From NCBI GenBank assembly GCA_030428255.1, contig JAUIBT010000025.1:1-49620 (forward strand): a stretch of DNA of 49,620 bases, read 5' to 3'. A program made the translations under genes and the position numbers. Each line of letters begins with the position of its first letter. Position 1 is the first letter of the stretch. The notes below the pieces were generated by a model that made no database searches, was not told where the DNA came from, and worked only from the letters and a program-made list of their open reading frames with translations. The DNA comes from Alphaproteobacteria bacterium (GTDB lineage Bacteria; Pseudomonadota; Alphaproteobacteria; UBA7985; JAUIBT01). Below are positions 15,021 through 24,996 of this stretch, one piece after another.

Positions 15021-16493
15021 ATGATTGGCCCCTTCGTTGACCGCCTGTTTGATCCTGTTTGCCGAACCGCAATCACCCGCCTGCGGCGCGTCATGCAAAC
15101 CGCTGGGCTGTGCCTGGTGTTGGGCGCTGGTCCTGCGGGGTTGCTTGCCACCGCCCAGGCTCAGCAGGCAGGGGCGAGCTTTCAAGACGGCTTGGCTAGA
15201 ATGGAAGCTGGGCAGGTCAATGAAGCCGTCGCGATCTGGTCTGGGCTCGCCGATCAAGGGCAGCTAGAATCGCTGTATGCCTTGGGCCTGGTGTTCGAGA
15301 GCGGCGCGCCAGGGATTGTGCCAGATTCCATGCTGGCGGCGAACTATTACCAACGCGCAGCCGATGGCGGCTTGGCCGAAGCACAGACCAATTTGGGGCT
15401 GCTCTACGCCGAAGGGCGCGGCGTCGCCAAAAGCCAAGAGAAGGCCGTTGCTCTTTGGTTGCAGGCGGCGCGAAAGAACAACGCCATTGCTCAGTTTAAC
15501 TTGGGTCTGGCTTATTTCTCAGGCCGGGGCATCGATCAAGACATCGACGAGGCCTTGGGGCTGATCCTGGTGGCTGCTTTGCAAGGTTTGCCGCAAGCAC
15601 ACTATGCGATTGGCCAGTTCTATCTGCGCGGCCTGGGCCTGGATGAAGATCGCAGCCTGGCGTTGGCCTTCTTGCAGCAGGCCAAGTTGGGCGGGCACCA
15701 AGCTGCTGATTCCTTTGTCGCGGATCTCATCGCCGAAGGTGTGCTGGAAGCGGATTTAAACGATGCCAGCGTGCAGGCACGCCTGCCGCGCTTGCCGCGC
15801 TTGGTGGCGCAAAAGGCCATCCCAGAAGAGTCACCCGACAGCGCCCCGCCGTCGGCGGTCGCAGGCGATGCAACGGTGAACGTCCCGCGTCTGCCGCAAC
15901 AAGGCCAGGGCGTGCCTCTCTCAGTGCCAGCGGCCTCTGAAGCGACGACTGCGCAAAACCAGGCCGGTGCTTCGCCCGAACCACCCACGCCCTTGCCGCT
16001 TGCCAGCGATACTGCGGCCACGCCAGCGCCGAGTGATCCCGCAGATGGCGGCCTGCCCGCAAGCCAAGCTGCAGCCACGTTTGACGGCAGCCCCCCGCTG
16101 ATCGACCCGACTGCGCTCAGCAAGGGCGCGTTGAATTTCGGCAATCTCCAGCTTGGGCAGGTTGATGCGAACCTGCTGGAGGCCGACCCGAATCTGAAAC
16201 TGAACCCGCGCTCGGTGATTGCGCCGCGCACTGGCCTGGATCTGCCCCTAACCTTGGATGATGGGCAGGAAACCCCGGCCCTTGGGGGCGCCAATTTGGG
16301 GGCGAGCATCTTGGGCAGCAAGTTGCCCAGCACCGATGTATTGCAGTCCGGTGTATTGCAATCTGGCAATAGCCTGGCAGCAGGCGCGCAGCAGCCCGGT
16401 GCCTTGAACCAACCGTCTGCCACTGCCTTGCTGGACGACAGCGATAGCCAGGCACCGCTGCCCTTGCCGTTGGACGATGTGCCAGAATCCTAG
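15021..16493 (+). CDS. Sel1-repeat periplasmic protein, ends at an in-frame TAG before its SPOR domain
   Basis: 490 residues from ATG 15021 (MIGPFVDRLF). A start at 15093 (MQTAGLCLVL) would give a shorter signal peptide. The likely signal cleavage is after AQA at residue 47. Four Sel1-like repeats follow at about 70-235; conserved LGLLYAEGRGV, LGLAYFSGRGI and IGQFYLRGLGL segments mark them. Residues from about 260 are Pro/Ala/Ser/Gln-rich and disordered. The frame ends at TAG 16491-16493 but continues open, in the same frame, into a SPOR domain. Sel1-SPOR proteins are usual in alphaproteobacteria, so this looks like the upstream part of one broken gene. It may scaffold envelope or cell-division complexes. 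Confidence 0.75.
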   Translation: MIGPFVDRLFDPVCRTAITRLRRVMQTAGLCLVLGAGPAGLLATAQAQQAGASFQDGLARMEAGQVNEAVAIWSGLADQGQLESLYALGLVFESGAPGIVPDSMLAANYYQRAADGGLAEAQTNLGLLYAEGRGVAKSQEKAVALWLQAARKNNAIAQFNLGLAYFSGRGIDQDIDEALGLILVAALQGLPQAHYAIGQFYLRGLGLDEDRSLALAFLQQAKLGGHQAADSFVADLIAEGVLEADLNDASVQARLPRLPRLVAQKAIPEESPDSAPPSAVAGDATVNVPRLPQQGQGVPLSVPAASEATTAQNQAGASPEPPTPLPLASDTAATPAPSDPADGGLPASQAAATFDGSPPLIDPTALSKGALNFGNLQLGQVDANLLEADPNLKLNPRSVIAPRTGLDLPLTLDDGQETPALGGANLGASILGSKLPSTDVLQSGVLQSGNSLAAGAQQPGALNQPSATALLDDSDSQAPLPLPLDDVPES

Positions 16494-17015
16494 AGCCAAG
16501 GAATCAAGGGCCAGGCACCCCAGGCGCCCACGCCTCAGGCCCCTAATCCTCAGGCCCCTAATCCTCAGGCCCCTAATCCTCAGGCCCCTAATCCTCAGGC
16601 CCAGCAAGGCCAAACTGGCCCACGCCTGGGGCCCTTGCGATCTGCCGTGCCTGGCGCGCAACCGAACCAATCCGCCAGCGCCGCTGGCGCACCTGCGAGC
16701 ACCGCCCCCTTTCAGCGCACGCCAGAAGGCTTGATGCTGCTGGTCGGACCCAAGCCGCAGGGCGTGCCCTATGTGCTGTGGATCGGCACCGCAGAGACCA
16801 GCAAGCAAGGCGCCGAGCTGTGGCAGGCAGCCCTTGCCGCCGAGCCCAGTATTCTCGGCGGTTTGGAAGCCATTTTGGAGCCCGTGACAATCGGCAAGAC
16901 CAAGGGCTTTCGCGTCCTGGTCGGGCCGATTCCAGACGAAAAGCTGGGCTGGCAAGTCTGCAACGCGGTCAAGGCGGGCTCTATGTCCTTCTTCTGCAAG
17001 GTGCGGACGTTTTGA
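16494..17015 (+). pseudogene. SPOR-domain half of the split Sel1-SPOR gene
   Basis: This is the same reading frame as the Sel1 gene, open from the codon after TAG 16491 to TGA 17013-17015. It encodes a Pro/Gln repeat (APNPQ repeated), an Ala/Ser/Pro linker, then a SPOR-like domain at about 16729-17010: LMLLVGPKPQGVPYVLWIGT, LEAILEPV, KGFRVLVGPIPDEKLGWQVC, SMSFFCKV. SPOR domains bind denuded septal peptidoglycan. No ATG or ribosome-binding site is visible between the TAG and the domain; the first plausible start is a TTG at 16635. The domain is therefore either untranslated, made by readthrough, or separated only by a base-call error. Confidence 0.65.
16533..16601 (+). repeat. 15-bp tandem repeat, 4.6 copies (unit CCTCAGGCCCCTAAT)
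   Basis: Perfect copies start at 16533, 16548, 16563 and 16578, with a 9-base partial copy to 16601. In the SPOR-gene frame each encodes Pro-Gln-Ala-Pro-Asn. Identity without synonymous change indicates recent expansion by slippage. It begins 40 bp after the in-frame TAG. Confidence 0.9.
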
Positions 17016-17836
17016 GCCGAAAAGACCGAAGCGACGCCAAATCGTCCGCGCAGCGTCCAGTCGCTCAATCCCAGCACTGGGACTGGGACAAGCGGCATTT
17101 GAGCGGCCCCTTTGATTTCATCGGCGATGTCCACGGTTGCTTTGACGAGTTGCTGGCGCTGCTGGATCGGCTCGGTTACCAGGTCGCGCCCTTTGATCCC
17201 AAGGGTGAAGACCCGATTACTGCGCGCCATCCCCAAGGCCGCCTGCTGCATTTCGTGGGCGATTTGGTGGATCGAGGGCCCAATTCCAAGAACGTGCTGC
17301 GCCTGGCCATGGGCATGCAGGCGGCAGGTACTGCGCTTTGCGTCATGGGCAACCACGATGATCGCTTTATGCGCTGGCTCAAGGGCAACGAGGTGCAGAT
17401 CGCCTTTGGCCTTGAGACCAGCATCGCCGAAATGCGCGCCTCTAGCCCGGCCTTCAACCAAGCCGTGATGGCCTACTTGAAGTCCATCAGTTACTATCAC
17501 GCTTTGGATGGCGGCGCGTTGGTGGTCACCCACGCGGGCCTGCGGTCTGACATGCTGGGCGCGACCGGCCAAGCAGTGCGCGCCTATTGCTGTTATGGTC
17601 CGGTGCATCGCGAGACCGGCAAGCGCATTCACTGGGCACCTCAGTGGACGGGGCCTTTTAAGGTGATCTATGGGCACACGCCGATTGACCAGGCCGCCTG
17701 GCTCAGTGACACGCTGAACCTGGATACCGGCTGCGTATTCGGCGGAGCCTTGACCGCGCTGCGCTGGCCCGAAGACGTGCTGGTCTCGCAGCCCTCCAGC
17801 TTTGATTTCTACGCCGATGCAGGCGACGGTCTCTGA
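17012..17836 (+). CDS. Metallophosphoesterase (PP2A/PrpE-like)
   Basis: 274 residues from a TTG start at 17012 that overlaps the SPOR stop (TTGA), preceded by AAGGTG. The frame is open further upstream, but there it overlaps the SPOR frame and has no family content. Calcineurin-like motifs appear in order: GDVHG (38-42), GDLVDRG (83-89), GNHDD (113-117), H174 in THAGL, and GHTP (221-224). These coordinate two metal ions. Related enzymes hydrolyse phosphoproteins or diadenosine tetraphosphate (PrpE); the substrate here is unknown. Its last 28 bases overlap convergently with the EamA gene. Confidence 0.85.
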   Translation: MSRKDRSDAKSSAQRPVAQSQHWDWDKRHLSGPFDFIGDVHGCFDELLALLDRLGYQVAPFDPKGEDPITARHPQGRLLHFVGDLVDRGPNSKNVLRLAMGMQAAGTALCVMGNHDDRFMRWLKGNEVQIAFGLETSIAEMRASSPAFNQAVMAYLKSISYYHALDGGALVVTHAGLRSDMLGATGQAVRAYCCYGPVHRETGKRIHWAPQWTGPFKVIYGHTPIDQAAWLSDTLNLDTGCVFGGALTALRWPEDVLVSQPSSFDFYADAGDGL

Positions 17837-22143: not shown

Positions 22144-24996
22144 ATGGTGGATCGGCGCAGTTTGCCCGGGGCTGATGGCTCGTTGGACCCGCAGGGTAGC
22201 AATCCTTTGCGCACGCTCAGTGAGGAACCGCAGAGCGTCGCCGAGCGTCAGCGTCAAGACGGACCCAGTCAGGCTGCGGTTAATCAGGGTCGGGTGAATG
22301 CGCCCGCGGGACCGGTGCGCAGCTCTGGCCCCAATCCCTATGGGCAGCAGAGACCAGCGCCAGCGAGTAGACCCCAGGCCCGCCCTGGCGCAAAGCAGCC
22401 ACAAAAGCCTGGACCAGGCCTGTTAGCGCGCGCCGCCGGGCTGTTTGGCGGGGCCAAGCCCGAGCCCAGCGGGCGACCTGCGGGGCCGGTTGTTCGCAAT
22501 CCGCAAGGCTCCGGCGGTCGCCTGGGGCCGGCGTCGTATCCCCAGCCCGACCAACAGCAGCAGGCTCGCCATGCCCAAGAGCAGCGCCAGCGGGCTGCCT
22601 GGGAACAAGAGCAGCGCCGCCGCGCTGAAGCCGCTCATCGTCAGCGTGAAGCGCAGGCGCGCCAGCAGCAGGCCCAGCAAGAGCACGCGCGCCAACAGCA
22701 AGCCCAGCAAGAGAAGGCTCGAATCGCTGAAGAACAGCGCCAACGTGTCGCGTGGGAGCAAGAGCAGGCCCGCCTTGCCGAAGAGCAGCGTCAGCGCGAG
22801 GCCTGGGAGCAAGAGCAGCGCCGCCGCGCCGAGCTCGCCCAACGCCAACAGGCCGAACACGCCCGGCAAGAGCAAATGCGCCGTGCCGAAGACCAGCGCC
22901 GCCGCGCGGCATGGGAACAAGAGCAGCGCCGCTTGGCCGAGGAGCAACACCAGCGCGCGGCCTGGGAGCAAGAACAGCGCCGTCGCGCCGAGCAGGCCCA
23001 GCAAGAGCACGCGCGCCAACAGCAAGCCCAGCAAGAGAAGGCCCGGCTGGTCCAGGCCCCACGTGGCGAGGGCCAGCAGCCCGCCCCAGAGCCGCCAGAC
23101 GGTAGTTCTGATGCATTGTCAGCCCCTCAAGCGCGCAAAGGGCGAGGGCGGTTTGCGGTGCCAAACCAAGCTTCGCGGCCTGCCGAGCGGCCTCAAGGGC
23201 CGATGGCCTCAGAAGTTCAAGGCGCAGCAGAACATGCAGCAGCAACCCAACCTGATTTGCAGGCCAACAAGCCGCCCAAATCCTCGTTGGACGCGGCCGA
23301 ACATAGGCCTGAGCACAGATCCAAGAAGGAGCCTGAGCACGCAAGCAAGGCTGAGGAACAGCCCGCTTTGAAAGCGCAGGCGTCCTTGGATGCGCAACAG
23401 CCAGATGAGCCGACCGCCGAGCGGTCACACATGCCGCGCCGTGGTCTTGCGGGGCTCTGGCCATTTGGGCGCAAGAAACCAGGCAAGCCAGGGCAGAGCG
23501 CTGACAGCGCTGCGAAGACCCGCCAAGTCGAGGCAGACACTCCAGACAAGCCGCAGGACACGACAGGCTCGGCGTCGAAGTCCAAGGCAGCAGCAGATCA
23601 GCGTGCCAGCTCAAAAGCCGGGCAGGAAACCCGTGATCCAGAGGCAGACGCCAAGGCCGCCGCGAGCGTGGCCGCCCAGTTGCAAGGCAGCCAATCGAAC
23701 GGCTCGCAGTTGCAAGGTCCGCGGACGCAAAGCGAGGGTGCACCGCCGCCGCTACCTGTTGCACCCGCGCCCGCGCCAGGCAGCACCAGCTCGGTTTCGC
23801 AGACTTACTCCGCTGGGCGCGATGCAGACAAGGTGAACGAGGCACGCGCTGAACCGGTAGCGCCGGGACAAGGCACGCCCGCTCAGGAGAAGGCCAATCA
23901 GGCGGAACACAGTCTGGCGGAACCCACTCGGGCGGAGCCCTCCCAGGCAGATATCATTCCACAGAAGCCAGAAGCCGCCAAGCCCGCTGCCGAAACTCCC
24001 AACTCGAACGAGTCCAAGGCGAGCCAGGAGGACAGGGCGCAAGCAGGACTGTCCAGGCCTGAATCGCCGACGCTGACGGCAGGCGCTCAGCCGAACACCG
24101 CTCACCCCGGCGCAAACCAGGGTGTAAATCCGGTGCCTGCGGCACCCAATCCAGCGCAAGCAGCGCCCGCAAGGCCGGCAACGGTAATCGACGCGCCGCG
24201 CCGCGCCAGCGCTGAGCCCGCGCGCCCGATGCGACGCTCCAACCTGCCGCCTTTGCCGCCCTTAGACCGCAAGTTCCCCGGTCTGGTGGCGCTCAATTTG
24301 CAAAAGTCATTCGGCAAGCGCAAAGTGCTGCACGACGTCAACATTGGCATTCGCCCCGGCGAGGTCGTGGGCCTGCTGGGGCCCAACGGCGCGGGCAAAA
24401 CCACCAGCTTTTACATCGTTTGCGGTCTGATCCAGGCCGACCAGGGCTATGTGGGCATCAATGCGCGCAACGTCAGCGCCATGCCCATGTATCGGCGCGC
24501 CAAGTACGGCCTGGGCTACCTGCCGCAAGAAGCATCGATTTTTCGCGGCCTAACGGTCGAGCAGAATATCATGGCCGCACTGGAGGTGGTGCAGCCAGAT
24601 CGCAGCAAACGCAAACAGCGCCTCGAAGAGCTGCTGGCGGAGTTCTCTATCACCCATCTGCGCGGCGTCAATGCCTTGGCGCTGTCGGGTGGTGAACGGC
24701 GGCGGACCGAGATCGCGCGCTCTTTGGCCAGCAACCCGCAGTACGTGCTGCTGGACGAGCCCTTTGCTGGCGTCGATCCGATCGCCGTGGGGGACATTCG
24801 CAACCTGGTGGGCCAGCTCAAACAGCGCGGCATCGGCGTTTTGATCACAGATCACAATGTGCGCGACACGCTGAACGTGGTGGACCGCGCCTATATTATC
24901 TATGACGGCCGCGTGCTGATGCAGGGCGAGCCCGCAGAGATCGTGCGCGATGAGCGTGTGCGTAAGGTCTATTTGGGCTCGGATTTCGAGCTTTAG
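22144..24996 (+). CDS. lptB: LptB ATPase with a ~700-residue low-complexity N-terminal extension
   Basis: 950 residues in one uninterrupted frame, starting 9 bp after lptA. Residues about 705-950 are a complete LptB, the ATPase of the LptB2FGC LPS exporter: Walker A GPNGAGKTT (746-754), signature LSGGE (847-851), Walker B YVLLDEP (867-873), switch H904. Ordinary LptB is about 240-300 residues. Residues 1-140 are Pro/Gly/Gln-rich; 141-305 are a Gln/Ala/Arg/Glu coiled coil with AWEQEQ five times; 306-700 are disordered, acidic and Ala/Ser/Pro/Lys-rich. Repeat copies differ mainly at third codon positions, so the extension appears to be translated. An internal ATG at 24229 (MRRSNLPPLPP) could give a short LptB but has no visible ribosome-binding site. 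Confidence 0.85.
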   Translation: MVDRRSLPGADGSLDPQGSNPLRTLSEEPQSVAERQRQDGPSQAAVNQGRVNAPAGPVRSSGPNPYGQQRPAPASRPQARPGAKQPQKPGPGLLARAAGLFGGAKPEPSGRPAGPVVRNPQGSGGRLGPASYPQPDQQQQARHAQEQRQRAAWEQEQRRRAEAAHRQREAQARQQQAQQEHARQQQAQQEKARIAEEQRQRVAWEQEQARLAEEQRQREAWEQEQRRRAELAQRQQAEHARQEQMRRAEDQRRRAAWEQEQRRLAEEQHQRAAWEQEQRRRAEQAQQEHARQQQAQQEKARLVQAPRGEGQQPAPEPPDGSSDALSAPQARKGRGRFAVPNQASRPAERPQGPMASEVQGAAEHAAATQPDLQANKPPKSSLDAAEHRPEHRSKKEPEHASKAEEQPALKAQASLDAQQPDEPTAERSHMPRRGLAGLWPFGRKKPGKPGQSADSAAKTRQVEADTPDKPQDTTGSASKSKAAADQRASSKAGQETRDPEADAKAAASVAAQLQGSQSNGSQLQGPRTQSEGAPPPLPVAPAPAPGSTSSVSQTYSAGRDADKVNEARAEPVAPGQGTPAQEKANQAEHSLAEPTRAEPSQADIIPQKPEAAKPAAETPNSNESKASQEDRAQAGLSRPESPTLTAGAQPNTAHPGANQGVNPVPAAPNPAQAAPARPATVIDAPRRASAEPARPMRRSNLPPLPPLDRKFPGLVALNLQKSFGKRKVLHDVNIGIRPGEVVGLLGPNGAGKTTSFYIVCGLIQADQGYVGINARNVSAMPMYRRAKYGLGYLPQEASIFRGLTVEQNIMAALEVVQPDRSKRKQRLEELLAEFSITHLRGVNALALSGGERRRTEIARSLASNPQYVLLDEPFAGVDPIAVGDIRNLVGQLKQRGIGVLITDHNVRDTLNVVDRAYIIYDGRVLMQGEPAEIVRDERVRKVYLGSDFEL
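22566..23056 (+). repeat. Coiled-coil-encoding repeats within the lptB extension
   Basis: Degenerate repeats of about 17 and 11 codons, rich in CAG/CAA, GAG/GAA, GCC/GCG and CGC/CGT. AWEQEQ-encoding copies occur near 22599, 22749, 22800, 22908 and 22959. A near-identical stretch of about 45 bp, encoding QQEHARQQQAQQEKAR, is found at about 22675-22720 and again at 22997-23045, indicating segmental duplication. Synonymous differences between copies show constraint on the protein. Confidence 0.75.

Follow-up and report, generated by a model that had tools for sequence, protein, structure and literature searches.

In the account on which we draw here, denuded septal glycans are the ligands of SPOR domains (PMC6895207); by analogy, glycan binding by the SPOR domain described below is putative. 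A second point of reference is the survey of Belinky et al. (2021), according to which in-frame stop codons are widespread in bacteria, some of them being read through, and mostly persist for about as long as population polymorphism (PMC7918605). This pattern fits the stop codon reported below without any special decoding.

We analysed a 49,620-nt stretch of alphaproteobacterial DNA (the window). A sequence-only reading had claimed that a lone in-frame TAG splits a Sel1-SPOR gene there, and translation of positions 15021-17015 confirmed this. The frame consists of 490 sense codons, the TAG (16491-16493), 173 further sense codons and a terminal TGA (17013-17015), the TAG being the only stop inside it (Table 1). 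The Sel1-SPOR envelope protein is thus not encoded as one uninterrupted product, because of this TAG. The part preceding the stop contains an N-terminus resembling a signal peptide (cleavage near AQA/QQ, judged by eye), Sel1 repeats (PF08238, four stretches, E = 3.5e-25 with Pfam) and most of a Pro/Gln-rich linker, and is 57-61% identical to its counterparts in two congeners (G001 and G002). The real start of the gene may be either ATG 15021 or ATG 15093. In the severed 3' part, the SPOR domain occupies positions 16719-17012. The linker contains, shortly 3' of the TAG, a tandem repeat with a five-codon unit that keeps the frame. This repeat is missing from the congeners in the alignment and is lineage-specific; it is a recent frame-keeping expansion. 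A frameshift arising from this repeat is a conceivable source of the stop, in a linker that aligns poorly. No Rfam or tRNA matches were found within the 49,620 nt of the window.

Table 1. Position, strand and supporting evidence of the features at the Sel1-SPOR locus
Feature	Position	Strand	Evidence
Truncated ORF, up to the TAG	15021..16493	+	Translation; Pfam Sel1; congener identity
In-frame TAG between the Sel1 and SPOR parts, in a fast-evolving linker	16491..16493	+	Not present in the orthologous frames L010, L011, L013, L015, L016 and L017
Severed 3' part (remaining linker and SPOR domain, ending at TGA 17013-17015)	16494..17015	+	Congener identity; dN/dS; SPOR-like fold
Perfect 15-bp tandem repeat, CCTCAGGCCCCTAAT, PQAPN units	16533..16602	+	TRF, 4.7 copies, 100% matches
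AGAAGG followed by ATG 16734, 4-nt spacing	16724..16736	+	Start and Shine-Dalgarno scan
Calcineurin-like phosphoesterase gene, downstream	17012..17836	+	Pfam Metallophos, E = 6.7e-14

The same reading had assigned the frame after the TAG to a SPOR domain. With Pfam, the match to PF05036 was below threshold (19.1 bits for a cut-off of 21, E = 0.0016); an order-level homologue, in G004, cleared the cut-off with 30.1 bits. The tail, modelled with AlphaFold2 (mean pLDDT 81, pTM 0.74), displayed a beta-alpha-beta-beta-alpha-beta arrangement, and its best PDB matches with Foldseek were the SPOR domains of CwlC (1x60), DedD (6ztg) and RlpA (6i05). The E-values were weak (1.6e-3 at best), with all of the top three places taken by SPOR domains. 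A sequence search of the PDB with the SPOR profile gave no match, whereas the fold search did. Homology and the predicted fold thus support the identification of the severed tail as a SPOR domain, and the assignment is borne out by the G004 homologue and the SPOR-like model.

To place the stop among relatives, we compared the gene with those of two congeners, each a separate species represented by one genome, and of four more members of the order, in which an orthologue was counted only where the whole gene was present. The congener orthologues were uninterrupted (694 codons in G001, L010; 706 codons in G002, L011). In G003, G004, G007 and G008, the Sel1 repeats, linker and SPOR domain likewise formed one unbroken frame, so that the six intact orthologues had frames of 454-706 codons. 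The order of genes at the locus, with a transketolase gene upstream and the phosphoesterase gene downstream, is common to both congeners. An apparent TAG inside a Sel1 gene of G002 (on C89) turned out to be the normal end of that gene. When a profile of the SPOR part was searched across 289 alphaproteobacterial genomes, 54 contained a match, and in none of these was there a stop inside it. Among close homologues, the window was alone in having the SPOR part split off into a short frame (173 aa, as compared with 706 in G002 and 546 in G003). A few weak matches elsewhere in the class, distantly related SPOR proteins, likewise came from frames of only 112-182 aa.

The SPOR tail was 79-85% identical to its congener counterparts over 98 codons, and the differences were mostly at third positions, which indicates that the tail is not a chance open frame. 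In the comparison with the congener orthologues, identity across the SPOR part was 80-84%. In the SPOR part, dN amounted to 0.115 (G002) and 0.146 (G001), with dS values of 0.75 and 1.4, respectively; the resulting dN/dS of about 0.10-0.15 is approximate because dS is near saturation. The corresponding figures for the Sel1 part were about 0.14 for dN and 1.5-2.4 for dS. Judged from these codon comparisons, the severed SPOR part retains the signature of purifying selection. Residues unique to the window were found at 7 of 98 SPOR positions and at 27 of 191 Sel1 positions, and the SPOR part shows no acceleration in the window's lineage. Neither a second stop nor a frameshift was found in the 173-codon tail. 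Over this length, about 21 new stops are expected per neutral substitution per site and none had arisen, so that little neutral divergence can have accumulated since the stop appeared; our own estimate is roughly less than 0.15 substitutions per site.

A tail that has not decayed means that the stop is young, that it is not real or that the tail is still translated. Three features of a young pseudogene are found at this locus: unbroken orthologues in near relatives, the absence of any further lesion and a conserved downstream part. The sequence-only reading had left the choice between a recent nonsense mutation, a sequencing error and programmed readthrough. The first is the best supported, because a single genome has the stop, the tail is still conserved and decay has gone no further. 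We consider it probable that the TAG is an ordinary recent nonsense allele in the window's lineage. Programmed readthrough found no support, and sequencing error was retained as the unlikely but serious competitor that we discuss now.

The TAG could stem from a wrong consensus base, or from a mixture of strains, in the assembly, the real gene being intact. Such an error would be consistent with a frame that is otherwise perfect and a tail that is conserved. Moreover, the TAG adjoins the perfect 15-bp tandem repeat, where short reads align poorly, and the records of the congeners are metagenome-assembled genomes, so that the window's genome may be one as well. Its assembly comprises 58 contigs and is 99% complete. 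However, a random base error seldom yields a stop (in these codons, about 3-4% of changes do so), and a survey of split genes gave no sign of an error-rich assembly, since it disclosed only one other split gene. This survey, based on codon usage, covered about 455 kb of the genome, including the window, and flagged 16 stop-separated pairs in the same frame, one of them a genuine split, in a Sel1 gene (contig C58). The remaining pairs resemble adjacent genes of the usual kind, the second of which starts close to the stop. The survey is insensitive in low-complexity linkers because codon scoring is blind there, and it overlooks TAG 16491 itself.

The Sel1 gene on C58 (G000:C58:985-1962, minus strand; L080, L169) is a second one, with two in-frame stops, a TGA near the N-terminus and a TAG within a Sel1 repeat. 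No close orthologue of it was found in the two congeners, and it looks like a decaying gene. This suggests that nonsense decay of Sel1 genes occurs in this genome.

If the TAG were read through, in a programmed or merely tolerated manner, the gene would yield a soluble Sel1 form together with a minor, full-length, septum-binding form. This would agree with the persisting constraint on the SPOR part and with the read-through stops of the survey cited above (PMC7918605). A conserved tail would be seen under readthrough or base error too, and to that extent it weakens the case for a nonsense allele. The same survey, however, concludes that most stops of this kind persist for little longer than a population polymorphism does (PMC7918605). 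The stop was also missing from all orthologues examined: six other members of the order do not have it. Neither a dedicated decoder nor a stimulatory RNA structure was found. There was no CUA anticodon or suppressor tRNA among the genome's 33 tRNA matches and no PylS in the genome, while the RF1 gene was present, well over the family cut-off. The 120 nt of RNA following the stop folded little better than shuffled sequences (z = -1.26; 27 of 200 shuffles were as good), which was not significant. The context of TAG 16491 is not distinctive, and nothing in it marks a site of programmed readthrough.

General leakiness of TAG would presumably be costly as well, since TAG is the commonest stop. That TAG is a normal stop here had been proposed from the ends of lptC and lptA, and this holds: TAG terminates lptC, lptA, lptB and rpoN, and the genome counts agree. 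The other coding-like frames of the window ended in TAG, TGA and TAA in 22, 13 and 4 cases, respectively (22/39 TAG), and a crude count of gene ends in about 455 kb of the genome gave about 66 TAG, 52 TGA and 37 TAA (66/155 TAG). TAG was therefore the commonest stop in both the window and the larger sample, in a genome that is G+C-rich. In such a genome, TGA would be expected to be the commonest stop. Taking these points together, we judge readthrough of the TAG to be very unlikely. A more specific version, in which a species-specific amber codon is partly read by near-cognate tRNAs, giving mostly soluble Sel1 protein plus a small SPOR-anchored fraction, in a ratio that tunes septal targeting, appears extremely improbable.

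Elsewhere in the window (22144-24996, + strand), a 950-codon frame encodes an LptB-type ABC ATPase at its C-terminus (ABC_tran, residues 729-875), preceded by an N-terminal extension of about 680 residues that is rich in Gln, Arg and Ala and apparently disordered. Both congeners have the same layout: their frames comprise 951 and 952 codons and begin in a similar way (M-D-R/K-R ... SNPLR). The extension thus seems to be genuine and conserved within the genus.

The SPOR part might also be the product of a gene of its own. The earlier reading had found no good start downstream of the TAG. This stands for the in-frame starts at 16635 and 16647, where the start scan detected no Shine-Dalgarno site, but not for ATG 16734, which has AGAAGG 4 nt upstream. 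It is the only internal start with a well-matched Shine-Dalgarno-like sequence and would give a 93-residue product devoid of signal peptide, from an ORF that spans nearly the whole SPOR domain. A pair of genes, one for Sel1 and one for SPOR starting at ATG 16734, is nonetheless hard to credit. The AGAAGG-ATG site corresponds to conserved PEGLM codons and is found within the intact G002 gene too; the SPOR-only product could not reach peptidoglycan because it lacks a signal peptide; and the locus has no separate SPOR frame in any close relative. Relatives with both a stop at this place and an independent start for SPOR, as a two-gene arrangement would entail, were looked for with a negative result, which argues against such an arrangement. 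Translation from 16734 is possible as a by-product, but unlikely to define a second gene.

We return to the recent nonsense allele. The stop is there, the relatives lack it and the tail is conserved. The ancestor would have been a normal alphaproteobacterial envelope gene, with a signal peptide, Sel1 repeats, a long disordered linker and a C-terminal SPOR domain, and the lineage of the window's genome would very recently have gained a single nonsense codon in the linker. Translation would end at TAG 16491, giving a Sel1 protein that is periplasmic and soluble and lacks the peptidoglycan-binding SPOR domain, and the SPOR half would not be translated, or only at trace level. The protein would then no longer reach denuded peptidoglycan at the septum by way of SPOR, as expected if this domain binds denuded septal glycans as others do.

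The premature stop may also lower translation of the phosphoesterase, because the start of that gene, likely TTG 17012, seems to overlap the TGA of the SPOR frame (TTGA). This junction (17012-17015) is kept in both congeners, G001 and G002, which suggests translational coupling and makes such a polar effect plausible. If the allele is real, it would offer a natural test of a Sel1-SPOR protein deprived of its septum-binding domain, and also of whether the coupled phosphoesterase gene suffers. For annotation, the locus is best described as a single Sel1-SPOR gene that contains a premature stop, and neither as two genes nor as a case of recoding. The finding is an ordinary one: the gene is of a known kind, and the nonsense codon occurs in a single genome.

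The gene resembles the Sel1-SPOR proteins of the six other members of the order (G001, G002, G003, G004, G007 and G008), to which it is orthologous by sequence at both ends, in having a signal-like N-terminus, Sel1 repeats, a Pro/Gln/Ala-rich linker and a SPOR domain; it differs from them by the linker stop, present in the window's genome alone. The tail shares its predicted fold with the SPOR domains of RlpA, CwlC and DedD, its best structural matches, although sequence identity to them is low (14-17%). With the nonsense alleles surveyed by Belinky et al. (2021), the window's allele has in common a single in-frame stop, purifying selection around it and an evolutionarily short life; theirs were shared by at least two genomes, whereas the one described here was found in one (PMC7918605).
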